From Okeania sp. KiyG1 (lineage in GTDB: Bacteria > Cyanobacteriota > Cyanobacteriia > Cyanobacteriales > Microcoleaceae): a stretch of DNA of 64,000 nucleotides. The notes under the pieces are model-generated. The model was given only the letters and a program-made list of their open reading frames with translations, ran no database searches and was not told the origin of the DNA. Position 1 is the stretch's first letter; every line of letters begins with the position of its first letter. The position numbers and the translations under genes are program-made. Shown piece by piece: positions 6,554-53,671 of the stretch. The stretch spans positions 1-64,000 of the forward strand of contig NZ_BLZO01000093.1 of the NCBI RefSeq assembly GCF_014132355.1, read 5' to 3'.

Positions 6554-6720
6554 ATAGGCAAGGGAATTACATCAAAGCCAGAAAAATGGCTAGAACCCTT
6601 GTTCAACAATTAATAATTAATAATGGCTTTGTTGCATGAAAGTAGCGTTCTTAAAATCCATTCGGCAGTTATATCACTCTGTTTCGCAATTATTAATGTT
6701 CTATTTAACTATTGGACAAT

Positions 6721-7599
6721 AGTTATGACTCTGGTGATCAGCGTACGCTTTGTTTGGCAATGATTACTATTTATCTATTGGACAATAGTAGACTGACACA
6801 GCTAAAATAGTGCATTAGATTCAATTCAAAAGTCAAAAGTCAAAAGTCAAAAGTAAGAATTTTTAAGTTAAAAGCTAATCCACATTTTTAGATGAAACGA
6901 TCCACTACTAGACTGACACAGCTAAAATAGTGCATTTTTCTAATGCTCTAATTTTTACTGCTCATGTATTTGAATAAAAATCTATTGCACCAAATTAGCT
7001 GTGTCGTTCCAATAGTTATGACTCTGGTGATCAGCGTACGCTTTGTTTGGCAATGATTACTATTTATCTATTGGACAATAGTAGACTGACACAGCTAAAA
7101 TAGTGCATTAGATTCAATTCAAAAGTCAAAAGTCAAAAGTCAAAAGTAAGAATTTTTAAGTTAAAAGCTAATCCACATTTTTAGATGAAACGATCCACTA
7201 CTAGACTGACACAGCTAAAATAGTGCATTTTTCTAATGCTCTAATTTTTACTGCTCATGTATTTGAATAAAAATCTATTGCACCAAATTAGCTGTGTCGT
7301 TCCAATAGTTATGACTCTGGTGATCAGCGTACGCTTTGTTTGGCAATGATTACTATTTATCTATTGGACAATAGTAGACTGACACAGCTAAAATAGTGCA
7401 TTAGATTCAATTCAAAAGTCAAAAGTCAAAAGTCAAAAGTAAGAATTTTTAAGTTAAAAGCTAATCCACATTTTTAGATGAAACGATCCACTACTAGACT
7501 GACACAGCTAAAATAGTGCATTTTTCTAATGCTCTAATTTTTACTGCTCATGTATTTGAATAAAAATCTATTGCACCAAATTAGCTGTGTCGTTCCAAT
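6721..7599. repeat. Three tandem copies of a 293-bp unit containing a MITE-like insert
   Basis: Units start at 6721, 7014 and 7307, an exact 293-bp period, and look almost identical. Each begins with one copy of the 66-bp repeat described next, then contains GACACAGCTAAAATAGTGCA twice and its near-inverse TGCACCAAATTAGCTGTGTC once at the end. This gives a ~110-bp inner element with ~20-bp terminal inverted repeats, plus an AAAAGTCAAAAGTC stretch. Exact conservation suggests recent tandem amplification. A degenerate half-copy precedes the block at about 6670-6720. Confidence 0.85.
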
Positions 7600-8325
7600 A
7601 GTTATGACTCTGGTGATGAGCGATCACTTTGTTTGGCAATAATTACTATTTAACTATTGGACAATAGTTATGACTCTGGTGAACAGCGATCACTTTGTTT
7701 GGCAATAATTACTATTTAACTATTGGACAATAGTTATGACTCTGGTGAACAGCGTACGCTTTGTTTGGCAATGATTATTATTTATCTATTGGACAATAGT
7801 TATTACTCTGGCGTTCGGCGTACGCTTTGTTTGGCAATGATTACTATTTAACTATTGGACAATAGTTATTACTCTGGCGTTCGGCGTACGCTTTGTTTGG
7901 CAATGATTACTATTTAACTATTGGACAATAGTTATTACTCTGGCGTTCGGCGTACGCTTTGTTTGGCAATGATTATTATTTAACTATTGGACAATAGTTA
8001 TTACTCTGGCGATCGGCGTACGCTTTGTTTGGCAATAATTACTATTTAACTATTGGACAATAGTTATTACTCTGGCGATCAGCGTACGCTTTGTTTGGCA
8101 ATAATTACTATTTAACTATTGGACAATAGTTATTACTCTGGCGATCAGCGTACGCTTTGTTTGGCAATAATTACTATTTAACTATTGGACAATAGTTATT
8201 ACTCTGGCGATCGGCGTACGCTTTGTTTGGCAATAATTACTATTTAACTATTGGACAATAGTTATTACTCTGGCGATCGGCGTACGCTTTGTTTGGCAAT
8301 GATTACTATTTATCTATTGGACAGT
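7600..8325. repeat. Eleven tandem 66-bp repeats with 8-bp palindrome
   Basis: Copies begin at 7600, 7666, 7732, 7798, 7864, 7930, 7996, 8062, 8128, 8194 and 8260, an unvarying 66-bp step. Each unit holds AACTATTGGACAATAGTT, an 8-bp perfect inverted repeat with a 2-bp spacer. The variable part reads GCGATCA or GCGTACG followed by CTTTGTTTGGCAAT. There is no spacer variation of the CRISPR kind and no sustained open frame. The strict spacing, unusual for dispersed repeats, would place palindromes at about six helical turns from one another. Confidence 0.9.
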
Positions 8326-15750: not shown

Positions 15751-15879
15751 GTCTTTCAGAACCTCCTGGACAGATACTTGCTTGTGTACTTGTGAGTCTT
15801 TTTACACACACAATATTTGTGTACTTGTGTACTGCTATTGTAAAAAAATATATAATTTGACTTGAAAGTCAAAGCAAAA

Positions 15880-16110
15880 GTGATTAAAACTCAAGAGCTA
15901 AAAGAACTAGAAATACAAGAAATTAAAGAAAGGTATCCTAAGCAGTGGGTGACAGTGAACATTACCGAAAAAGATGTTTATGGTTTTCCTGCTAAAGGAA
16001 AAGTATTATTGCAAGCGAGTTCGATTGATTTGATGGTGGACAAAATTAAATCTCTTCAAGGCGATTTGTACACATTCTATACTGGTAGTATTGATGATAA
16101 GGTTGAGTGA
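15880..16110 (+). CDS. DUF5678-like small protein
   Basis: The protein is about 76 residues with a charged helical start (ELKELEIQEIKERYPKQW) followed by a compact strand-rich part (VTVNITEKDVYGFPAKGKV...SSIDLMVDKI). The pattern Tyr-Pro-x-Gln-Trp-Val then a loop then VLLQASSIDLM resembles DUF5678. The GTG at 15880 is chosen because it aligns with the ATG of the paralogue at 18024; a TTG at 15862 in the same frame is the alternative. It lies immediately upstream of a retropepsin-like protease gene (36-base gap), a pairing often seen in cyanobacteria. Molecular role is unknown. Confidence 0.65.
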   Translation: MIKTQELKELEIQEIKERYPKQWVTVNITEKDVYGFPAKGKVLLQASSIDLMVDKIKSLQGDLYTFYTGSIDDKVE

Positions 16111-17168: not shown

Positions 17169-17861
17169 ATTAACTCTCAGGTTGAGGAAGAAACATATAA
17201 TCTGTCAGGCAAACCAAAACCTATTAACTTCGACTTTGCCCAGTCTATTATTCAAGCTGTTACTTCAGGAAATGATTTTGAAGGTACGCAATTTACCAAC
17301 AATGTTGTAGAAAGAATTCAAAACATTGACCAAGGAAATAGTTTGGAAGATAAATTTTTAATTGTTGCTCACTCCCAAGGAAACTTCTTTGCTGAAGATA
17401 TTTTTAATCAACTACCTGAAGATATTCAACAAAGAACAAGAATATTAGCTTTCTCTCCCTTTACAAATTTCCAGGGAATTAGTTCCGATAAATATGACTA
17501 TTTATTACGAGAAGATGATTTTCCTAGCCGCCTGAAAAACCTACCAGCAATAGCTGTTCCCGAAGACCAACATAACCTTCCTAGCTGGCCAGGGAACTTT
17601 ATACAATCTTTCTTTCCAGGAGATAGAGACTCACACAAAATCGAAAATTATCTAGATATCAATCAATATCCCCAGGGAAGTCAAGAAGATTTATTAGTAG
17701 AAGAATCATTCGAGCAAGCGAAGGTAAAAATTCAGGAATTAATGAATTTTGACTCTGGTATCAATCAACAAGAACAAACAATTAACCAGGGATTAGAAAA
17801 TTCATCTGACTCATTTTTTGGATTGCCAATTAATAACGATAACGATATTTTTCAGGTATAA
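17169..17861 (+). pseudogene. Truncated alpha/beta-hydrolase-like (lipase) fragment
   Basis: An open frame runs from about 17169 without an initiation codon in good context, and only a TTG at 17343 precedes the recognisable part. The sequence FLIVAHSQGNFFAED holds a GxSxG-like nucleophile elbow (AHSQGN) typical of lipases and alpha/beta hydrolases. Later DSHKIENYLDI supplies a plausible catalytic His. Coding similarity starts abruptly after a repeat segment with AACCCAACCTACAAAGC (17140-17168). The 5' part of a longer, perhaps surface or exported, protein therefore appears to have been lost. The C-terminal ~50 residues are Gln/Asn-rich. Decay is inferred from the missing start. Confidence 0.55.
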
Positions 17862-18023
17862 ATAACTTAATATCTGAAGGAAGAGACTTTATTTTTGGCT
17901 GGTAATACAGTGATTTGTGGGTTTGCTACGACGAGTATAAAGTCTTAGCCAGCCCACTGTTTTTTTTACTAGGTTTTGAGCTATATAATATTATTAGTAA
18001 TCCTTGTAGTAAAAATACTTAAA

Positions 18024-18504
18024 ATGGTTAAAAAATCCCAAGGACTAAAAATACGGGAGATCGAAGAAAAGTATCCTAAGCAATGGGTGGTAGTAGACAT
18101 TACTGAAAGAGATGAGTATAATTTTCCTGCTAGTGGAAAAGTATTATTACAAGGGAGTTCGATTGATTTTATCTCAACGTTGGTTGAAGACCCGCGCTCT
18201 CCCGAAGGGGAGCGTCGGGATGAAAACCAATCAATTTTGCGGTTTCGTTAATAGTGTGTTAGACTTAGAAATATGGCTGCTGGGCTAGCAGTTTCAGTCT
18301 GTGGAGCGACCGTAAGACCGAAAAGAGGCTCGACCTTGGAGGCTGGTGCATTGAAGCAGAAAGACCTAATAGCGCGATGGTTAGGAATCCCGCACTGTCA
18401 CGCAAGTGCAGCGTCGGGAGGATGTCAATTTAGACAAAATTGAATCTTTTCAAGGCGACTTGTACACATTCTATACTGGTAGTATTGATGGCGAGGTTGA
18501 GTGA
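18024..18504 (+). pseudogene. DUF5678-like gene interrupted by a mini IS605-type element
   Basis: The first part (MVKKSQGLKIREIEEKYPKQ...GKVLLQGSSIDF) is a paralogue of the protein coded at 15880-16110. The frame is interrupted after 18172. Deleting 18173-18428 rejoins it in frame as GSSIDF-ILDKIESFQGDLYTF...SIDGEVE, ending at a TGA at 18502-18504. That gives 74 residues, with no gaps against the intact paralogue over the joined region. The gene is thus inactivated by a single clean insertion. Confidence 0.85.
18173..18428. mobile_element. 256-bp non-autonomous IS200/IS605-family element
   Basis: The boundaries are fixed by comparison with the intact paralogue at 15880-16110. The insert follows TTAT (18169-18172) and ends TCAA (18425-18428) without target duplication, as expected of IS608-like single-strand transposition. 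Near the left end is the hairpin CCCGCGCTCTCCC-GAA-GGGGAGCGTCGGG, and near the right end TCCCGCACTGTCACGCAAG paired with a distal GCGTCGGGA. The interior has no transposase frame. The segment AGTCTGTGGAGCGACCG resembles the ends of tnpB elements where guide RNA scaffolds lie; that last point is inference. Confidence 0.85.
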
Positions 18505-18518
18505 GGTAAACTCAGGTT

Positions 18519-20510
18519 AATAATTTCCGGATTAACTATAGGAGTATGGGAAAAAGAAATGGTAGATGCACCCTGATGGATAACCTCCCCCGTAATTGGT
18601 GGAGGTTTTTTTTTGACCCGAAAACAACAGAAAATCAAATTAATAATTCCCGGATTAACTATAGGAGTATGGGAAAAGAAATGGTAGATGCACCCTGATA
18701 GATAGCCTTCACCGTAATTGGTGGAGGTTTTTTTTGACCCGAAAACAATAAAAAATCAAATGAATGAATAATTCCCGGATTAAGTATTGGAATATGGGAA
18801 AAATAAATGGTAGATGCACCCTGATAGATAACCTTCGCCTTCATTGGTGGAGGTTTTTTTTGCACTAAAACAACAGAAAATTAGCTTTATAATTCCCGGA
18901 TTAACTATAGGAGTATGGGAAAAAGAAATGGTAGATGCACCCTGATAGATAACCTCCGCCTTCATTGGTGGAGGTTTTTTTTTGCACTAAAACAACAGAA
19001 AATTAAATTAATAATTCCCGGATTAACTATAGGAGTATGGGAAAAAGAAATGGTAGATGCACCCTGATGGATAACCTCCGCCTTCATTGGTGGAGGTTTT
19101 TTTTTGCACTAAAACAATAAAAAATCAAATGAATGAATAATTCCCGGATTAAGTATTGGAATATGGGAAAAATAAATGGTAGATGCACCCTGATGGATAA
19201 CCTCCGCCTTCATTGGTGGAGGTTTTTTTTTGACCCGAAAACAACAGAAAATTAGCTTTATAATTCCCGGATTAACTATAGGAATATGGGAAAAAGAAAT
19301 GGTAGATGCACCCTGATAGATAACCTCCGCCTTCATTGGTGGAGGTTTTTTTGCACTAAAACAACAGAAAATTAGCTTTATAATTCCCGGATTAACTATA
19401 GGAATATGGGAAAAAGAAATGGTAGATGCACCCTGATAGATAACCTCCGCCTTAATTGGTGGAGGTTTTTTTTTGACCCGAAAACAATAAAAAATCAAAT
19501 GAATGAATAATTCCCGGATTAACTATAGGAATATGGGAAAAAGAAATGGTAGATGCACCCTGATGGATAACCTCCGCCTTCATTGGTGGAGGTTTTTTGC
19601 ACTAAAACAACAGAAAATTAGCTTTATAATTCCCGGATTAACTATAGGAGTATGGGAAAAAGAAATGGTAGATGCACCCTGATGGATAACCTCCGCCTTC
19701 ATTGGTGGAGGTTTTTTTGCACTAAAACAACAGAAAATTAGCTTTATAATTCCCAGATTAACTATAGGAGTATGGGAAAAAGAAATGGTAGATGCACCCT
19801 GATGGATAACCTCCGCCTTCATTGGTGGAGGTTTTTTTGCACTAAAACAACAGAAAATTAAATTGATAATTCCCGGATTAAGTATTGGAGTATGGGAAAA
19901 AGAAATGGTAGATGCACCCTGATAGATAACCTTCGCCGTAATTGGTGGAGGTTTTTTTTGACCCGAAAACAACAGAAAATTAAATTAATAATTCCCGGAT
20001 TAACTATAGGAGTATGGGAAAAAGAAATGGTAGATGCACCCTGATAGATAACCTTCGCCTTCATTGGTGGAGGTTTTTTTTTGACCCGAAAACAACAGAA
20101 AATCAAATGAATGAATAATTCCCGGATTAAGTATTGGAATATGGGAAAAAGAAATGGTAGATGCACCCTGATAGATAACCTTCGCCTTCATTGGTGGAGG
20201 TTTTTTTTTGACCCGAAAACAACAGAAAATCAAATGAATGAATAATTCCCGGATTAAGTATTGGAATATGGGAAAAAGAAATGGTAGATGCACCCTGATA
20301 GATAACCTTCGCCTTCATTGGTGGAGGTTTTTTTTTGACCCGAAAACAACAGAAAATCAAATGAATGAATAATTCCCGGATTAAGTATTGGAGTATGGGA
20401 AAAGAAATGGTAGATGCACCCTGATAGATAACCTTCGCCTTCATTGGTGGAGGTTTTTTTTGCACTAAAACAACAGAAAATTAAATTGATAATTCCCGGA
20501 TTAAGTATAG
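18519..20510 (+). repeat. Sixteen tandem ~122-bp units, each with an intrinsic terminator
   Basis: Each unit opens with TTCCCGGATTAACTATAGG or a close variant, continues GTATGGGAAAAAGAAATGG and TAGATGCACCCTGAT, and closes with a G+C-rich stem ACCTCCGCC-TTCATT-GGTGGAGGT followed by 6-9 T. That is a textbook rho-independent terminator on the plus strand. Units begin near 18519, 18645, 18770, 18891, 19012, 19140, 19261, 19381, 19509, 19627, 19747, 19867, 19989, 20116, 20244 and 20369; a seventeenth is cut off at about 20489-20510 before its stem. Variation is confined mostly to the spacer after the T-run. The minus-strand frames (KKPPPMKAEVIYQGAS and similar) arise from the repeat and shift frame between units. 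A tandem small-RNA array is the favoured reading. Confidence 0.85.
18951..18983 (+). terminator. Representative terminator hairpin of the tandem array (unit 4)
   Basis: The stem ACCTCCGCC / GGTGGAGGT forms nine pairs, one of them G-U, with loop TTCATT, immediately followed by a run of nine T. The same structure occurs once per unit, sixteen times. Compensatory-type variation is visible: units with CTTCGCC or CTCCCCC on the left arm keep most pairing. Confidence 0.8.
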
Positions 20511-21083
<573 letters not shown>

Positions 21084-23030
21084 TCAAATTTTGAGAATAC
21101 CCTCTGGGTTTACTGATAGTAATTTTCGCTTTTGTAAACCCTCTCGATTAAGAATTTCATTTGCTGCTAATAACCCACTACTAACAGCTCTTTCCATTAA
21201 ACCACAGGGAAAAGGCATTTTTACCCAATCTCCAGCAAATATCAAATTATTAACACCACTGTTAGTTTCTGGACGTTCTTGATAACTACCTGGAGGATAA
21301 CCGGAAAAATTTTTCTGATTTACCAATTCCCGATGTAGCATATTAGCATCCTTTAATTCAGGCACAATTTCATACAATTCCTGTTCAAAAGTTGTCAGTA
21401 AATTTTCTTGAGTAGGAAACTCTTTTTCTTTGTAACAATAAGCGTGTAACTCTACTACACTACCGCCTGTTTTTTTATGCCATTTAATGAATTGTTCTTG
21501 AATGCGATGATAGAGAGTAATACTATCAGTTAATTGATAGCCGGATAGAGAAGTAAAATTACTATTTTTCCACTCAAAGTCTTGGTCAAACCAAAAACGG
21601 CAGACAGCAAATGGATCGGCTATATTCAGTTTTTTTACCCGGTCTTTTACTTTTTGATTGACATCTCCCTCCATCACATTAAATAAGTGTTTAACTCCTG
21701 GAACATCCGTAGCAAATACATAATAATCTGCCTGAATTTCTGTAGGAATAATCTCTGAATTATTTTCTGTTATACCAACTAACTCCACCTGATTTTCTCG
21801 ACTTTGAGTAATTTTGTAGCGCGATAAATTTCGTTTTGCTGGACCTGTTAATACCTTTCCTTGACTATCATAAACTGCTCCGTGACAAGGGCAGTAAAAT
21901 TTGCCATCTTCAGCTAAATTAACAGTACAACCTTGATGAGTACAAGTCAGAGAAATAGCCTCATCTGAACCAGCTTTAATAGCAAAAAGGCGATCGCTCG
22001 ATCCAAAATAATTAGCATCCTGTTTATTGATTTCTAAATTACGTTCTACCCAAAAAGGAATTACACTTTTAGCCTCTCCTAATTGATAACTAATAGAATC
22101 AACTTTACCTTGTTTCCAATTAATTTTACTAATACCAATATCGGTAAAAATTTTACCTCCCCGACTTTGAATTTCCTGAGCAATAGGTTGTACTAAACTT
22201 GTACCCATATCTTCCTTCGTACCATGAAAAGCTAAACCTTCTGGATTACCAAAAAAATAGAAGTGAAAAAACTGCATTAACTCTGCAACGCTCAATTTAT
22301 CTGGAGCATTAAGACTTGATTTTGCAAAAGGTAAAAAATATAAATCATACAATCCTTGCGGAAAATCTTTATTTACCCATTTAGCTACAGATAAATTGTC
22401 AAGCTGCTGATAAGTTTTATCTACTTGAAAACCACCTATCGCCCGAAAAACTTCCCAATGTTTAGGTTTTGCCAAATTAATTCCCCATCTCAATCTATTA
22501 GGAGAAGAAATTGCTAAATCCACAATATTCCAAGGAAAAGCAGAATTGCTAGGACGAAATACTTCTGGGTCATATTTCCCTTTTCTAAATACCATGGAAT
22601 AAAACTCTAAAGACTTAAAATTATCGGTAATATTCACTTCTGATACTAAATTTTTGAGGTTGTAATACTGAGGAAAAAAACCATGAAAACCATGTTCCAT
22701 CATGAATTTTTCTTCCCCAAAATTAACAGACCAACTAGCAATTTTTCCTCCTAGTTGTGGCGATTTTTCTAACAAAGTAACACTAAAACCTCGCTGACTA
22801 AGTTCATAAGCACAAGCTAATCCTGCTAATCCACCACCAACTACTACTACGCTTTTAGATTTGTTTAAATATCGTGGTAAGTCCAGATTATCTTGTACAA
22901 AAACTGTTGGTTGTGGTTTGGAAAATCTAGTATAACCAAGTAGACCAGTGGCAGTAGCAACGGTAAATAATTTGAGTATTGTTCGTCGCGAAACTGATTG
23001 TAATGACTTGAGATTATTGAATTGATTCAT
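21084..23030 (-). CDS. Tat-exported FAD-dependent oxidoreductase with an inserted Rieske domain
   Basis: The ATG at 23030 is chosen over a TTG six bases upstream. The N-terminus has a twin-arginine signal, SRRTILKLFTVATATGLLGY. A phytoene-desaturase/amine-oxidase-like FAD fold follows, with VVVVGGGLAGLACAYEL and the LLEKSPQLGGK segment after it. In mid-protein (about residues 355-405) a Rieske [2Fe-2S] ligand set is inserted: CTHQGC then CPCHGAVYD. The FAD fold resumes and ends with NLIFAGDWV and the GLMERAVSSGLLAANEIL signature. Length is ~648 residues. The combination suggests an electron-transferring oxidase or desaturase acting in the periplasm or thylakoid lumen on a lipid-like substrate; this is inference. 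No partner genes adjoin. Confidence 0.85.
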   Translation of the reverse strand: MNQFNNLKSLQSVSRRTILKLFTVATATGLLGYTRFSKPQPTVFVQDNLDLPRYLNKSKSVVVVGGGLAGLACAYELSQRGFSVTLLEKSPQLGGKIASWSVNFGEEKFMMEHGFHGFFPQYYNLKNLVSEVNITDNFKSLEFYSMVFRKGKYDPEVFRPSNSAFPWNIVDLAISSPNRLRWGINLAKPKHWEVFRAIGGFQVDKTYQQLDNLSVAKWVNKDFPQGLYDLYFLPFAKSSLNAPDKLSVAELMQFFHFYFFGNPEGLAFHGTKEDMGTSLVQPIAQEIQSRGGKIFTDIGISKINWKQGKVDSISYQLGEAKSVIPFWVERNLEINKQDANYFGSSDRLFAIKAGSDEAISLTCTHQGCTVNLAEDGKFYCPCHGAVYDSQGKVLTGPAKRNLSRYKITQSRENQVELVGITENNSEIIPTEIQADYYVFATDVPGVKHLFNVMEGDVNQKVKDRVKKLNIADPFAVCRFWFDQDFEWKNSNFTSLSGYQLTDSITLYHRIQEQFIKWHKKTGGSVVELHAYCYKEKEFPTQENLLTTFEQELYEIVPELKDANMLHRELVNQKNFSGYPPGSYQERPETNSGVNNLIFAGDWVKMPFPCGLMERAVSSGLLAANEILNREGLQKRKLLSVNPEGILKI

Positions 23031-23036
23031 CAGCAA

Positions 23037-35631: not shown

Positions 35632-35820
35632 AATTTTACCTTGTTGATTGCAAAATAAACAAAAATGTGGTTGGGAGGCGATCGCTTTATTAGACATCTT
35701 CAGAAAATAGAGAGCAGGGAGAGATAATTGATTTCCTGTTTTTATTATTGGAGATGTCTATTGCTAAAGCGATAAGTGTTGCTCCAAGGGAAGCTACAAC
35801 TCGTTTGGTTTTGTAAGTTA

Positions 35821-36746
35821 TAGAATTGTTTTTTCCTTGATATAGTTTTTTTCACCTTTCTATAAAATCATTTATCTTGAGGTGCAAAATTTATGCACCT
35901 AAACAAGAAATCTGGTGTATAGCCCTAATTATCTGGACTTTTAAAACTACACATAGAATTGTTTTTCCTTGATATAGTTTTTTCACCTTTCTATAAAATC
36001 ATTTATCTTGAGGTGCAAAATTTATGCACCTAAACAAGAAATCTGGTGTATAGCCCTAATTATCTGGACTTTTAAAACTACACATAGAATTGTTTTTTCC
36101 TTGATATAGTTTTTTTCACCTTTCTATAAAATCATTTATCTTGAGGTGCAAAATTTATGCACCTAAACAAGAAATCTGGTGTATGGCCCTAATTATCTGG
36201 ACTTTTAAAACTACACATAGAATTGTTTTTTCCTTTATGTAGTTTTTTCACCTTTCTATAAAATCATTTATCTTGAGGTGCAAAATTTATGCACCTAAAC
36301 AAGAAATCTGGTGTATGGCCCTAATTATCTGGACTTTTAAAACTACACATAGAATTGTTTTTTCCTTTATGTAGTTTTTTTCACCTTTCTATAAAATCAT
36401 TTATCTTGAGAAGCAAAATTTATGCACCTAAACAAGAAATCTGGTGTATGGCCCTAATTATCTGGACTTTTAAAACTACACATAGAATTGTTTTTCCTTT
36501 ATGTAGTTTTTTTCACCTTTCTATAAAATCATTTATCTTGAGAAGCAAAAATTATGCACCTAAACAAGAAATCTGGTGTATGGCCCTAATTATCTGGACT
36601 TTTAAAACTACACATAGAATTGTTTTTTCCTTTATGTAGTTTTTTTCACCTTTCTATAAAATCATTTATCTTGAGAAGCAAAAATTATGCACCTAAACAA
36701 GAAATCTGGTGTATAGCCCTAATTATCTGGACTTTTAAAACTACAC
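35821..36746. repeat. Seven tandem ~132-bp repeats with hairpin
   Basis: Units start at 35821, 35954, 36085, 36218, 36350, 36483 and 36615 with TAGAATTG and a T-run of varying length, which explains the 131-133 bp spacing. Each contains AGGTGCA-AAATTTA-TGCACCT, a perfect 7-bp stem; in the last three units the left arm is changed to AGAAGCA, breaking it. The frame seen over two units (36355-36639) is a by-product of the repeat. Confidence 0.9.
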
Positions 36747-49105: not shown

Positions 49106-52100
49106 ATGTGGACTCCCTATCTAGAATCAATTTGTCGGGACTATACCAACTGGTGGAAGGTTTATACTCTGACAGATGTGAGGGGAAAAAAGTCTCTTCA
49201 GCAGCAACAAAATATTTCCCCACTGTTGGATTTAGGTTTGATGGTACAAACTGTTGCGGAAGAAAAACAGAGGGAAATACAAGAAGAGAAAATTGAACGG
49301 TTGACGGTTTTGGAGGGTTTGCGCAAATATGCTCCAAATCATGTGTTGTTGGTGGGGCGGCCGGGGTCGGGAAAATCTACTGCTTTGGCCAGATTGTTGT
49401 TGGAGGAGGCAACAAAGTTGATATCCCCCCTTAGTCCCCCCTTGGAAAGGGCGGAAATAAGAGAAACTTCCCTGTTAGAAGAAGCAGAAAAATTGATATC
49501 CCCCCTTAGTCCCCCCTTGGAAAGGGGGGAAACAAGAGAAACTCCTGCCTTTGAGAGTAAGGATGAAGGACAAACAACAGAAACTCCTTTGGAAACAGGG
49601 GAAACAGGAGAAACTCCCCCCTTAGAAAGGGGGGTTGGGGGGGATCGAAAACCGGATACTTCCGCAACAGCAAACACACAAATTGATAGTTCTTCTATTT
49701 CCGAGGCAGAGAAATTGAGATCCCCCCTTAGTCCCCCCTTGAGAAGGGGGGAAACAAGAGAAACTCCTGCCTTTGAGAGTAAGGATGAAGGACAAACAAC
49801 AGAAACTTCTTTGGGAACAGGGGAAACAGGAGAAACTCCCCCCTTAGAAAGGGGGGTTGGGGGGGATAAACCCAAAATTCCCATCCTCATCGAACTCCGC
49901 TACAGTCAATCTTCCATACTTTCCAGAATTCAAGCTTTTATCCACAAACACCACCCCACCATAAATATAGATACAGCAACTCTAGAAACTTTGCTCCGTC
50001 AAGGTGAATTTTTGCTGCTCTTCGATGGGTTTAACGAGATGGCATCGGAAGCGGCACGACAACTCTTAAGAATGTTTCGGCAAGACTACCCCAAAACTGC
50101 TATGGTGTTTACCACGCGATATTTGAGTCTGGGGGGAGATTTGGGGATTGAGAAAAAGTTGGAAATGCAGCCTCTGACTGAATCTCAAATGCAGGAATTT
50201 ATCTGTGCTTATTTGCCGGAGCATGGTGAAAATTTATGGCAGCAGTTGCAGGGGAGGTTGCGGGAGTTGGGGGAAACTCCGATGTTTTTGTTGATGTTGT
50301 GTTCGGTGTTTGGCTATCACAAGGTAATACCTGCTAATCTGGGGTTGGTGTTTCGGAGTTTTACTCAGACTTATAGTGGTCGCCTCAAGCAAGATGTTCC
50401 CGTTGATGAAAGTTCTCGACGTTGGTGGGATAGGTTATTGCAGGAGTTGGCGTGGGTGATGACGAATGGGGTGTCGAAAACTGAGATTATGGTTGCTATT
50501 TCTCGCCCAAAAGCTGAGGCGGTATTGACGGAGTTTTTGCGAGGGGAGGTGGTAGCTCCGACTGACTGTGCGATGCGTTGGTTGGAGGATTTATTGGAGC
50601 ATCATTTGATTCAGGTGGGAGATGATGGTCAGATTTCGTTTCGTCATCAATTGTTGCAGGAGTATTATGCGGCGGAAAGGTTGTTGTGGCAGTTGTCTGG
50701 TTTGAGTGACTATGAGTTGCAGTGGGATTATTTGAATTATTTGAAGTGGACGGAAGTTGTGGGGTTGATGTTGGGGTTGGTGGAGGATGAGGAGTTGGCA
50801 GTGCGGGTGGTAAGGTTGGCGTTGGAGGTTGATTGGTTTTTGGGTGCGAGGTTGGTGGGAGAGGTGCAAGGGAGGTTTCAGGAGCGGGTGTTTGTGGAGG
50901 TTGAGGGGTTGGAGTTGCCTGGGTTGGTAAAGGTTGAGTTGGCAGGGTTAACGAAGTCAGATGTTGCTATTCCAGGGTTGGTTAAATCTCTAGAAGACTC
51001 AGACTTTTATGTGCGTGGGAGAACAGCAGATGCTCTGGGTAAAATAGGTTCGGAAACTGCAATTGAGGGATTAATTCCACTCTTAGAAGACTCAGACTCT
51101 GAGGTGCGTAGGAATGCAGCAGATGCTCTGGATAAAATAGGTTCAAAAACTGCAATTGAGAGATTAATTCTACTCCTAGAAGACTCAGACTCTTCTGTGC
51201 GTTGGAGTGCAGTAGATGCTCTGGGTAAAATAGGTTCAAAAACTGCAATTGAGAGATTAATTCCACTCCTAGAAGACTCAGACTGGGACATGGGTAGGAA
51301 TGCAGCAGAAGCTCTGGGTAAAATAGGTTCGGAAACTGCAATTGAGGAATTAATTCCACTCCTAAAAGACTCAGATAAATATGTGCGTAGGAATGCAGCA
51401 TATGCTCTGGGTATAATAGGTTCGGAAACTGCAATTGAGGAATTAATTCCACTCCTAAAAGACTCAGACTCTAGTTTATGTATGAGTGCAACAGATGTTC
51501 TGGGTAAAATAGGTAAAGAATATGCGCGTAGGAATGCAGCAGAAGATCTAGGTAAAATAGGTTCAGAAACTGCAATTGAGGGATTAATTCCACCCATAGA
51601 AGACATTGTCCGAAAAGAAATTGAGAGATTAATTCCAGTCCTAGAAGACTCAGACTATTTTGTGCATAGTAGTGCAGCAGAAGCTCTGGGTAAAATAGGT
51701 TCGGAAACTGCAATTGAGGAATTAATTCCACTCCTAAAAGACTCAGACTTTTCTGTGCGTAGGAATGCAGCATATGCTCTGGGTATAATAGGTTCGGAAA
51801 AAGCAATTGAGGAATTAATTCCACTCCTAAAAGACTCAGACTTTTCTGTGCGTAGGAATGCAGCATATGCTCTGGGTATAATAGGTTCGGAAACTGCAAT
51901 TGAGGGATTAATTCCACTCCTAAAAGACTCAGACTTTTCTGTGCGTAGGAATGCAGCATATGCTCTGGGTATAATAGGTTCGGAAACTGCAATTGAGGGA
52001 TTAATTCCACTCCTAAAAGACTCAGACTTTTCTGTGCGTAAGAGAGCAGCAAATGCTCTGGGTATAATAGGTTCGGAAAAAGCAATTGAGGGATTAATTC

Positions 52101-53671
52101 CACTCCTAGAAGACTCAGACCCTGATGTGCGTAGGAATGCAGCAGAAGCTCTGGGTAAAATAGGTTCGGAAAAAGCAATTGAGGAATTAATTCCACTCCT
52201 AGAAGACTCAGACCCTGATGTGCGTAGGAATGCAGCAGAAGCTCTGGGTAAAATAGGTTCGGAAAAAGCAATTGAGGAATTAATTTCACTCCTAAAAGAC
52301 TCAAACAAATATGTGGTGGAGAAAGCAGCAGAAGCTCTGGGTAAAATAGGTTCGGAAAAAGCAATTGAGGAATTAATTCCACTCCTAGAAGACTCAGACT
52401 CTTCTGTGCGTAGTAGTGCAGCAAATGCTCTGGGTAAAATAGGTTCGGAAAAAGCAATTGAGGAATTAATTCCACTCCTAGAAGACTCAGACTCTTCTGT
52501 GCGTAGTAGTGCAGCAAATGCTCTGGGTAAAATAGGTTCCAAAAACACAATTGTTGAGTTAACAAAAAAACTACAAAATGATAGTTTTATTAGGCAAAAA
52601 GTTTTTCATAAGCTAATGCTGTCTCAAACCATCGAAACCATTCAAACCATCCAACAACGCTTTCAATACTACAAACAAACCCCCAAAATACCCATGTCTA
52701 AAACACTTTCTCACAACTACGCCCTACTAATAGGAGTCGGCAACTGCAAATACCCCAACTGGTCACTTCCCGTCACAGTCAAAGACGTTCAAGCCATCAA
52801 ATCATTCCTCATAAAACCTGACTTATGTGGTTACATTGACAATGAAAATTATCTCCGCTTCCTCTGCAATGAACAAGCAACAAAACAAAACATTTTAGAC
52901 AATTTAAACTGGCTCCAACAACAAGCAAAAAACGACCCAGAAGCAACAATATTAGTCTATTATTCCGGTCATGGTTGGCTAGATAAATCAACCCAAAACT
53001 ATTATTTAATCCCCCACGACACCAGTCCGGTAAGACTACAAAAAACAGCATTACCAGCAACAGACTTTAACAACGCCCTCCAGCAAATATCCGCCCAAAA
53101 ACTATTAGTAATTATAGATAGTTGTCACGCCCAAGGAATGGCAACTGCTAAAGAAACAGAGGAACTAGAATTACCGGAAAACTTCAGTCAAACCGCCCTC
53201 CCGAAAAACTTAATAGATGAATTAAGAAAAGGAACAGGGCGAGCAGTATTCACCTCATCCACAGGAGAGGAGTCATCATGGATACGCTCCGATGGAAAAA
53301 TGAGTATCTACACAGACCATTTTCTGGAAGCATTACATGGTGGTGGCAATAAACCAGGAGATAAATTTGTCACTGTTTCCAATTTAATGAATTATGTCGG
53401 AAAAACTGTTCCTGAAAGCGCTCGACAATTAGGGGAAAAACAAACTCCTATTTTTGACTTTTCCCAAACAGAAGATTTTCCGGTAGCGTTATTGTGTGGG
53501 GGTAAAGGTTTACCGGATGGTGGGTGGGAAGAGGTTAAGTCAGAAGTTCGGGAGAATATTAGTAATGTGATAACAGTAGAGAGAGGTATCGCTGCTGGCC
53601 GAGATGTTAATAATAAGAATATGAATCAAATCTTTATTGAAAAGCTAGAAGGAGAAGCAAAATTTAGTTAG
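49106..53671 (+). CDS. NACHT NTPase with HEAT repeats and C-terminal metacaspase
   Basis: The ATG at 49106 (MWTPYLESICRDYTNWWKVY) is chosen over a TTG at 49091 because it matches the usual start of this family. Domains in order: N-terminal helix bundle; NACHT with P-loop VGRPGSGKSTALA (about residues 82-94) and Walker B FLLLFDGFNEM (~302-312); a helical part; sixteen PBS-lyase HEAT-like repeats of 31 residues (~622-1147, e.g. SETAIEELIPLLKDSDFSVR); and a caspase/peptidase C14 domain from HNYALLIGVGNCKYPNW. The catalytic His is in YYSGHGW and the catalytic Cys in IIDSCHAQG. A ~150-residue low-complexity insert follows the P-loop helix and derives from intergenic repeats. The likely role, a nucleotide-switched sensor releasing a protease for cell death or defence, is inference. 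Confidence 0.9.
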   Translation: MWTPYLESICRDYTNWWKVYTLTDVRGKKSLQQQQNISPLLDLGLMVQTVAEEKQREIQEEKIERLTVLEGLRKYAPNHVLLVGRPGSGKSTALARLLLEEATKLISPLSPPLERAEIRETSLLEEAEKLISPLSPPLERGETRETPAFESKDEGQTTETPLETGETGETPPLERGVGGDRKPDTSATANTQIDSSSISEAEKLRSPLSPPLRRGETRETPAFESKDEGQTTETSLGTGETGETPPLERGVGGDKPKIPILIELRYSQSSILSRIQAFIHKHHPTINIDTATLETLLRQGEFLLLFDGFNEMASEAARQLLRMFRQDYPKTAMVFTTRYLSLGGDLGIEKKLEMQPLTESQMQEFICAYLPEHGENLWQQLQGRLRELGETPMFLLMLCSVFGYHKVIPANLGLVFRSFTQTYSGRLKQDVPVDESSRRWWDRLLQELAWVMTNGVSKTEIMVAISRPKAEAVLTEFLRGEVVAPTDCAMRWLEDLLEHHLIQVGDDGQISFRHQLLQEYYAAERLLWQLSGLSDYELQWDYLNYLKWTEVVGLMLGLVEDEELAVRVVRLALEVDWFLGARLVGEVQGRFQERVFVEVEGLELPGLVKVELAGLTKSDVAIPGLVKSLEDSDFYVRGRTADALGKIGSETAIEGLIPLLEDSDSEVRRNAADALDKIGSKTAIERLILLLEDSDSSVRWSAVDALGKIGSKTAIERLIPLLEDSDWDMGRNAAEALGKIGSETAIEELIPLLKDSDKYVRRNAAYALGIIGSETAIEELIPLLKDSDSSLCMSATDVLGKIGKEYARRNAAEDLGKIGSETAIEGLIPPIEDIVRKEIERLIPVLEDSDYFVHSSAAEALGKIGSETAIEELIPLLKDSDFSVRRNAAYALGIIGSEKAIEELIPLLKDSDFSVRRNAAYALGIIGSETAIEGLIPLLKDSDFSVRRNAAYALGIIGSETAIEGLIPLLKDSDFSVRKRAANALGIIGSEKAIEGLIPLLEDSDPDVRRNAAEALGKIGSEKAIEELIPLLEDSDPDVRRNAAEALGKIGSEKAIEELISLLKDSNKYVVEKAAEALGKIGSEKAIEELIPLLEDSDSSVRSSAANALGKIGSEKAIEELIPLLEDSDSSVRSSAANALGKIGSKNTIVELTKKLQNDSFIRQKVFHKLMLSQTIETIQTIQQRFQYYKQTPKIPMSKTLSHNYALLIGVGNCKYPNWSLPVTVKDVQAIKSFLIKPDLCGYIDNENYLRFLCNEQATKQNILDNLNWLQQQAKNDPEATILVYYSGHGWLDKSTQNYYLIPHDTSPVRLQKTALPATDFNNALQQISAQKLLVIIDSCHAQGMATAKETEELELPENFSQTALPKNLIDELRKGTGRAVFTSSTGEESSWIRSDGKMSIYTDHFLEALHGGGNKPGDKFVTVSNLMNYVGKTVPESARQLGEKQTPIFDFSQTEDFPVALLCGGKGLPDGGWEEVKSEVRENISNVITVERGIAAGRDVNNKNMNQIFIEKLEGEAKFS
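49412..49868 (+). repeat. Intergenic repeat modules translated within the NACHT gene
   Basis: The module ATCCCCCCTTAGTCCCCCCT then TGGAAAGGGGGGA (protein ISPLSPPLERG), its partner CCCCCCTTAGAAAGGGGGG (protein PPLERGVGGD) and a GGAGAAACTCC spacer recur. A composite of ~160 bp occurs twice (about 49480-49636 and 49706-49866). Related G/C-run palindromes lie in non-coding DNA at 37354 and 39387. All copies keep the frame, and the flanking protein (LLLEEA before, KPKIPILIELRYSQ after) would join smoothly without them. Confidence 0.85.
50970..52545 (+). repeat. 93-bp coding repeats (HEAT)
   Basis: Sixteen HEAT units share long blocks at DNA level (GCTCTGGGTATAATAGGTTC, GAATTAATTCCACTCCTAAA), and several neighbours are almost identical. 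This indicates recent expansion or gene conversion. Two irregular places occur: a shortened unit at about 51510-51560 and a modified one at 51590-51650. Minus-strand frames here are mirror images of the repeats. Confidence 0.9.

Follow-up and report, generated by a model that had tools for sequence, protein, structure and literature searches.

The window, the whole 64-kb stretch of contig NZ_BLZO01000093.1 of Okeania sp. KiyG1 analysed here, carries a tandem array of small RNA units on the forward strand (Table 1). Its host, a marine filamentous cyanobacterium, belongs to a genus that is not known to form heterocysts. Tandem Repeats Finder reported 16.2 copies at 18517–20511 (score 2908) together with a longer period of 369 bp that spans three units (5.4 copies, score 3229), and a direct count of the unit cores gave 16, spaced by 119–127 bp with a mean of 123.2 bp. 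The sixteen complete units of about 122 bp proposed in the preliminary description were thus confirmed. The RNA bodies of these units are of seven different kinds, two of which comprise five units each. The array is preceded by a plus-strand ORF (17976–18251) and is followed by a minus-strand gene (21084–23036) that ends towards it. Two related small ORFs were also noted at 15862–16110 and 17976–18503; the second seems to be interrupted, and what remains of it stops directly ahead of the array.

Table 1. Features of the tandem array and further NsiR1 loci of the same genome. Positions refer to the window unless a contig is given (G000, genome of Okeania sp. KiyG1).
Feature	Position	Strand	Basis
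Tandem NsiR1 array, 16 complete units and truncated 17th promoter	18519..20511	+	Tandem Repeats Finder, core count, Rfam
DIF1 box TCCGGA of unit 1	18526..18531	+	Sequence; sole exact box of 16
NsiR1 unit 1	18560..18613	+	Rfam RF02399, 50.1 bits
NsiR1 unit 2	18682..18735	+	Rfam RF02399, 51.8 bits
NsiR1 unit 3	18808..18861	+	Rfam RF02399, 52.2 bits
NsiR1 unit 4	18929..18982	+	Rfam RF02399, 57.8 bits
NsiR1 unit 5	19051..19104	+	Rfam RF02399, 56.3 bits
NsiR1 unit 6	19177..19230	+	Rfam RF02399, 56.3 bits
NsiR1 unit 7	19300..19353	+	Rfam RF02399, 54.7 bits
NsiR1 unit 8	19420..19473	+	Rfam RF02399, 58.5 bits
NsiR1 unit 9	19547..19600	+	Rfam RF02399, 49.9 bits
NsiR1 unit 10	19666..19719	+	Rfam RF02399, 53.2 bits
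NsiR1 unit 11	19786..19839	+	Rfam RF02399, 53.2 bits
NsiR1 unit 12	19906..19959	+	Rfam RF02399, 52.4 bits
NsiR1 unit 13	20028..20081	+	Rfam RF02399, 52.2 bits
NsiR1 unit 14	20155..20208	+	Rfam RF02399, 52.2 bits
NsiR1 unit 15	20282..20335	+	Rfam RF02399, 52.2 bits
NsiR1 unit 16	20408..20461	+	Rfam RF02399, 52.2 bits
Truncated 17th promoter (CCCGGA at 20495–20500), no RNA after it	~20490..20511	+	Sequence
chlD-linked tandem NsiR1 pair (locus L037)	G000:C26:47076-47310	minus	Rfam
NsiR1 copy between lgt and cobM, divergent from cobM (locus L038)	G000:C109:2895-2946	minus	Rfam

All 16 units matched NsiR1 (RF02399) above the Rfam gathering cut-off of 39, with scores of 49.9–58.5 bits. At the gathering threshold these were the only Rfam matches in the whole window, and between 17800 and 21000 the other Rfam families scored far below their cut-offs. 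Judged from its sequence, the array consists of sixteen tandem genes of NsiR1, a known small RNA family, rather than of an unnamed RNA; what had been offered as a parallel, with no claim of homology, proved to be the actual family. As a check of the method, the same search was run on G301 and recovered 12 copies beside hetF (one copy at 35 bits and one at 33 bits fall below the cut-off), which is the count published for Nodularia spumigena CCY9414 (PMC3610870). The array of N. spumigena is likewise in tandem, but it is linked to hetF and its host is heterocystous. A 13th NsiR1 copy of G301 lies between lgt and cobM.

In Nostoc (Anabaena) sp. PCC 7120, NsiR1 is reported as 12 copies with their own promoters and with hetF and alr3234 as targets (PMC9045159). 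The window array resembles this system as reported there: an RNA of about 60 nt with a conserved 5′ segment and a terminator hairpin, many tandem copies that are partly identical and partly diverged, and one promoter per copy, with DIF1 at −35 in Nostoc and a DIF1-type box at that place here. The 12 Nostoc copies, however, lie upstream of hetF with the first antisense to the hetF leader (PMC9045159), whereas the window has 16 copies, hetF on another contig and boxes that mostly read CCCGGA. Another counterpart is found in Limnospira indica PCC 8005, whose NsiR1-like RNA162 (57 nt) likewise occurs in a hetR-bearing genus without heterocysts (PMC8400943). Unlike the window array, RNA162 is presented as a single RNA gene, and the relevant part of that report describes no array.

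The units share a conserved upstream part, a hairpin and a T-run, and the scan, the folding of unit 1 and the T-run count bore this out for all 16, as the preliminary description had stated. A terminator scan of positions 17800–21100 returned 29 terminator-like sites, where shuffled sequences gave 3.6 on average (s.d. 2.2), and it detected the hairpin of 15 of the 16 units, that of unit 9 only in a 7-pair form. The scan missed the hairpin of unit 1, whose stem contains an internal mismatch, but folding still gives this stem. Runs of 6–9 T follow the hairpin in every unit, and the folding z-scores of four units were −1.4 (unit 1), −3.6, −2.9 and −2.5. The sequence supports the proposed organization as promoter–RNA–terminator cassettes for a small RNA. 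It does not support the suggested RNA length of 75–80 nt: homology leads us to expect 54–57 nt, varying with the start, which is predicted near AAAUGGUAG. Across families, the 5′ segment of the units is kept nearly unvarying while the stem changes. When 35 diverse members were aligned, positions 2–15 and 17 were invariant and the stem varied; these members had been picked for an exact core, so the conservation of the seed is partly a product of this choice. RNAalifold found zero consensus pairs in this gappy 35-member alignment, and formal covariation of the stem is thus unsupported.

The DIF1 motif TCCGGA at −35 is reported to make the nsiR1 promoter of Nostoc work (PMC6133370). As claimed earlier, a conserved box is present in every unit of the window array, but its wording varies (TTTCCGG in unit 1, TTCCCAG in unit 11 and TTCCCGG in the other 14). 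The corresponding hexamers are TCCGGA in unit 1, CCCGGA in 14 units and CCCAGA in unit 11, i.e., one exact box, 14 with one mismatch and one with two, and the relatives mostly present exact boxes or boxes with one mismatch. We compared 358 distinct units of 67 genomes, drawn from fetched loci and required to have a T-run and no more than one mismatch in the core. The exact motif occupied the −35 place in 131 of 177 units of Nostocaceae (f33), in 14/15 units of families f8, f9, f14, f20 and f28 with HetR, in 27/55 units of the host's own family outside the genus, in 5/74 units of the genus and in 8/37 units from genomes without HetR; it was absent from all nine shifted places. With up to one mismatch allowed, the same groups reached 174/177, 15/15, 47/55, 56/74 and 34/37, respectively. 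The shifted places then gave 0 to 4 matches, except for a single place with 10/55 in the own family; in the genus all nine gave none. At least one exact TCCGGA was found among the fetched units of 48/50 genomes with HetR and of 5/17 without it (2/12 when the latter were at least 93% complete). Within the genus, the truncated arrays of G001 and G002 contain exact boxes, as do single units of the window genome and of G005. Sigma-70 promoters were not in excess between 17800 and 21100 (8 sites against 9.1 in shuffled sequences), as would be expected of another promoter type.

All six genomes of the genus, including the window genome (10.98 Mb, 198 contigs, 92.4% complete), possess HetR, nifH above the cut-off and tandem NsiR1 units; the units are therefore not restricted to dispersed, decayed repeats in close relatives, a situation that the preliminary description had named as contrary to its reading. 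The window array has 16 units, that of G004 has 11, that of G003 has 10 and that of G005, which contains a gap of N, has 15 matches (one below the cut-off), and G001 and G002 present shorter stretches cut by contig ends. In G001–G004 the array is flanked by an SDR-type dehydrogenase gene on one side and a weakly matching methyltransferase gene on the other, with murG near the dehydrogenase (murG exceeds its NCBIfam cut-off; the dehydrogenase and methyltransferase labels are matches below cut-off). The dehydrogenase and murG also adjoin NsiR1 in G038, G061, G285 and G289. In the window genome, the dehydrogenase is on contig C132 and no NsiR1 core was found within the surrounding 20 kb. G005 shares the upstream genes of the window (92.9% identity over 2.2 kb) and retains the methyltransferase side. 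The window array has thus changed neighbours, having left the site used in four genomes of the genus with its units intact. Mean unit identity was 0.894 within the window array against 0.62–0.87 to other genomes, and 0.904 within G005, whereas units of G003 and G004 were no more alike within the array than between genomes. Of the four long arrays, two thus show homogenization.

Beyond the array, the window genome has three further NsiR1 matches above the cut-off at two loci, both kept in the genus (Table 1; the names lgt, cobM and chlD rest on matches above NCBIfam cut-offs). In the chlD-linked pair, GGGN5CCC starts 34–35 nt before the core and a −10 element, TATACT, lies 13 nt before it in 12/12 units of the six genus genomes. 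The HetR site is reported as GGGnnnnnCCC, with GAGGGGTCTAACCCCTC as the hetP version (PMC4192349), and the first chlD-linked copy of the window genome contains the hetP-like candidate operator GAGGGGTTTAACCCCTT. The whole window holds 11 GGGN5CCC, so this placement is not due to chance. In ten more stretches of the own family, 6 of 16 NsiR1 units carried GGGN5CCC (G205, G303, G038, G061 and twice G289) and 10 did not; chlD was seen only in the stretch of G289. For the DIF1 promoters of Anabaena, the more direct dependence is reported to be on HetZ, itself under the control of HetR (PMC7377430), and the two types of NsiR1 promoter may correspond to the two branches of the HetR/HetZ pathway.

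The lgt–cobM copy is widespread, being found in heterocystous and other genomes and also in family f17, which has no HetR. NsiR1 pointed away from cobM in 83/83 unit–gene pairs from 71 fetched loci, some of them overlapping. At least 116 stretches presented the DIF1–NsiR1 pattern; among the matches listed, the neighbour within 1.5 kb was cobM or lgt for 48, hetF for 7, the dehydrogenase or murG for 2 and none of the tested genes for 59. We considered NsiR8 and NsiR9 as identities of the cobM-linked copy, but at a reported 171 and 122 nt (PMC4734099) they do not match it in length.

The arrangement known from Nostoc, upstream of hetF with a first copy antisense to its leader, is absent here, which leaves membership in the RNA family unaffected. 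In the window genome hetF is on contig C110 and the array on C93, and in all six genus genomes hetF (NCBIfam NF045509, above cut-off for the query sequence) is on contigs other than those of any NsiR1 match. Elsewhere NsiR1 adjoins hetF divergently in many Nostocaceae loci, in G070, in G126 and in G013, and hetF is far from the NsiR1 arrays of the Nostocaceae genome G325. Antisense pairing to hetF within the genus is not supported by the duplex energies in the six genomes: with the upstream regions of hetF, NsiR1 did not outperform shuffled RNAs in four genomes and was about 1 and 2 s.d. better than them in G004 and G001, respectively. As a separate observation, G013, which has no PF03574 match, carries hetF and its divergent NsiR1 array on contig C200 (locus L113) with DIF1 boxes reading TCCTGA or TCCCGA.

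We assign a probability of roughly three in four to the reading that the window holds an NsiR1 array whose units are each transcribed alone via HetR/HetZ and whose RNA acts in trans. Under this reading, the HetR/HetZ pathway would drive separate transcription of every unit, probably when nitrogen is short. The exposed 5′ part of the RNA of about 57 nt would pair with the start regions of target mRNAs and lower their translation, much as NsiR1 of Nostoc reportedly pairs with alr3234 at its start region (PMC9045159), and the hairpin and T-run would serve only to end transcription. The size of the array may set the amount of RNA, although this is a guess. An array that is unlinked from hetF and that has moved with its units intact is what would be expected of a trans-acting RNA. 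Points that weigh against this reading are the 15 inexact boxes, the modest z-score of unit 1, the unsupported duplexes with hetF, the RNAalifold result and the partial dependence of seed conservation on how the units were picked.

It is possible, if unlikely, that the array is instead decaying: its units would be NsiR1 by descent and mostly silent, TCCGGA having turned into CCCGGA and this variant having spread by unequal crossing-over. The altered boxes of 15 window units and the predominance of CCCGGA in four of the six genus genomes are consistent with such a process, but the seven kinds of RNA bodies and all T-runs have been kept, Anabaena DIF+ promoters have been defined with one mismatch allowed (PMC6133370), and CCCGGA is found alongside TCCGGA in other genera (G038, G205, G289 and G303). 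The notion of plain repeats, selfish or structural DNA whose hairpins only insulate the neighbouring genes, gains something from a genome rich in tandem repeats (62 Tandem Repeats Finder rows in the window) and from the homogenization of the array. We nevertheless regard it as quite improbable given the Rfam membership, the 5′ segment kept across families and the fact that the genome contains just three NsiR1 matches outside the array.

A tiny coding gene is harder still to credit. The conserved stretch of many units reads ATG GTA GAT GCA CCC TGA, an ATG opens it in 54 of the 74 distinct genus units, and 23 of the 47 core mismatches among the 358 units change CCC to CCT, which is silent in that frame. 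The first triplet, however, is TTA in 12 genus units and TTA, AAG or AAA in 27/55 units from elsewhere in the family, and TGG replaces the stop in 22/358 units. Least probable of all is a cis-acting antisense RNA against a neighbour: NsiR1.1 is reported to act in this manner on hetF in Nostoc (PMC9045159), and the divergent arrangement recurs in G070, G126 and G013, but no gene start faces the array in the window and the neighbours of the array differ among the genus genomes.

We compared the distribution of NsiR1 and HetR across cyanobacteria. Among 389 genomes of the order, an NsiR1 match (E up to 0.001) was found in 281 and HetR (PF03574) in 237: all 237 genomes with HetR had a match against 44/152 of those lacking it. 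Genomes counted as lacking HetR are those in which PF03574 had no match; weak matches are lost to the stricter filters of the search, and relatedness is not taken into account in the Fisher tests. Above the Rfam cut-off were 257/389 genomes, 235 with HetR and 22 without, a split assigned from E-values and confirmed separately for 16 of the 22. Of these 22 exceptions to a strict rule, f31 accounts for ten and f17 for six; the remaining six include three genomes that are 81–89% complete. A phylum-wide draw of 386 genomes, some of them shared with the order set, contained HetR in 80 and an NsiR1 match in 95 (80/80 with HetR and 15/306 without); 80 genomes exceeded the cut-off, assigned by E-value to 78/80 and 2/306, respectively. 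The HetR-bearing genomes outside the order all had a match (11/11, E-values of 7.6e-9 or lower). Genomes of family f7 that lack HetR (G266, locus L123; G300, locus L122) also speak against a strict rule: their NsiR1 match is weak, the core is exact and the terminator stem is of another kind. Microcoleus vaginatus HSN003 has a DIF1–NsiR1 unit but no nifH above the cut-off.

NsiR1 follows HetR in the genomes compared and may therefore belong to what HetR did at an earlier stage. We lean slightly towards the view that NsiR1 is the conserved RNA arm of HetR and not a heterocyst RNA at root: its origin, in filamentous cyanobacteria, would coincide with or lie near that of HetR, and it would be fed by both branches, through DIF1 promoters (HetZ-dependent in Anabaena) and through direct HetR operators (GGGN5CCC), and would later have been taken over for heterocysts, while the genomes that keep it without HetR mostly lose the exact DIF1. 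The occurrence of hetR with patX in non-heterocystous species has been reported (PMC7761841, PMC11298460), and their role in species that never form heterocysts has been called a mystery (PMC11298460). If NsiR1 indeed goes wherever HetR goes, it would be a prime candidate for HetR's ancient output and would provide a read-out of HetR activity in non-heterocystous species. It would also caution against inferring heterocysts from the presence of NsiR1 in a genome. The link between HetR and NsiR1 is testable because a hetR deletion strain of Leptolyngbya BL0902 with RNA-seq data is reported to exist (PMC11298460).

Several other features were noted. A small patX-like ORF ending in RGSGR precedes hetR by about 0.6 kb in the window genome (G000:C169, locus L314) and also at locus L315. 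The window itself contains seven tandem copies of a 133-bp unit at 35820–36746 (98% matches), with a short GGTGCA...TGCACC palindrome and no Rfam match, and adjoining arrays of 293-bp units (3.2 copies) and 66-bp units (11 copies) at 6717–8323. Finally, 93-bp repeats are found in tandem at 50990–52553 (16.8 copies) and possibly encode a repeat protein, since 93 is a multiple of three.
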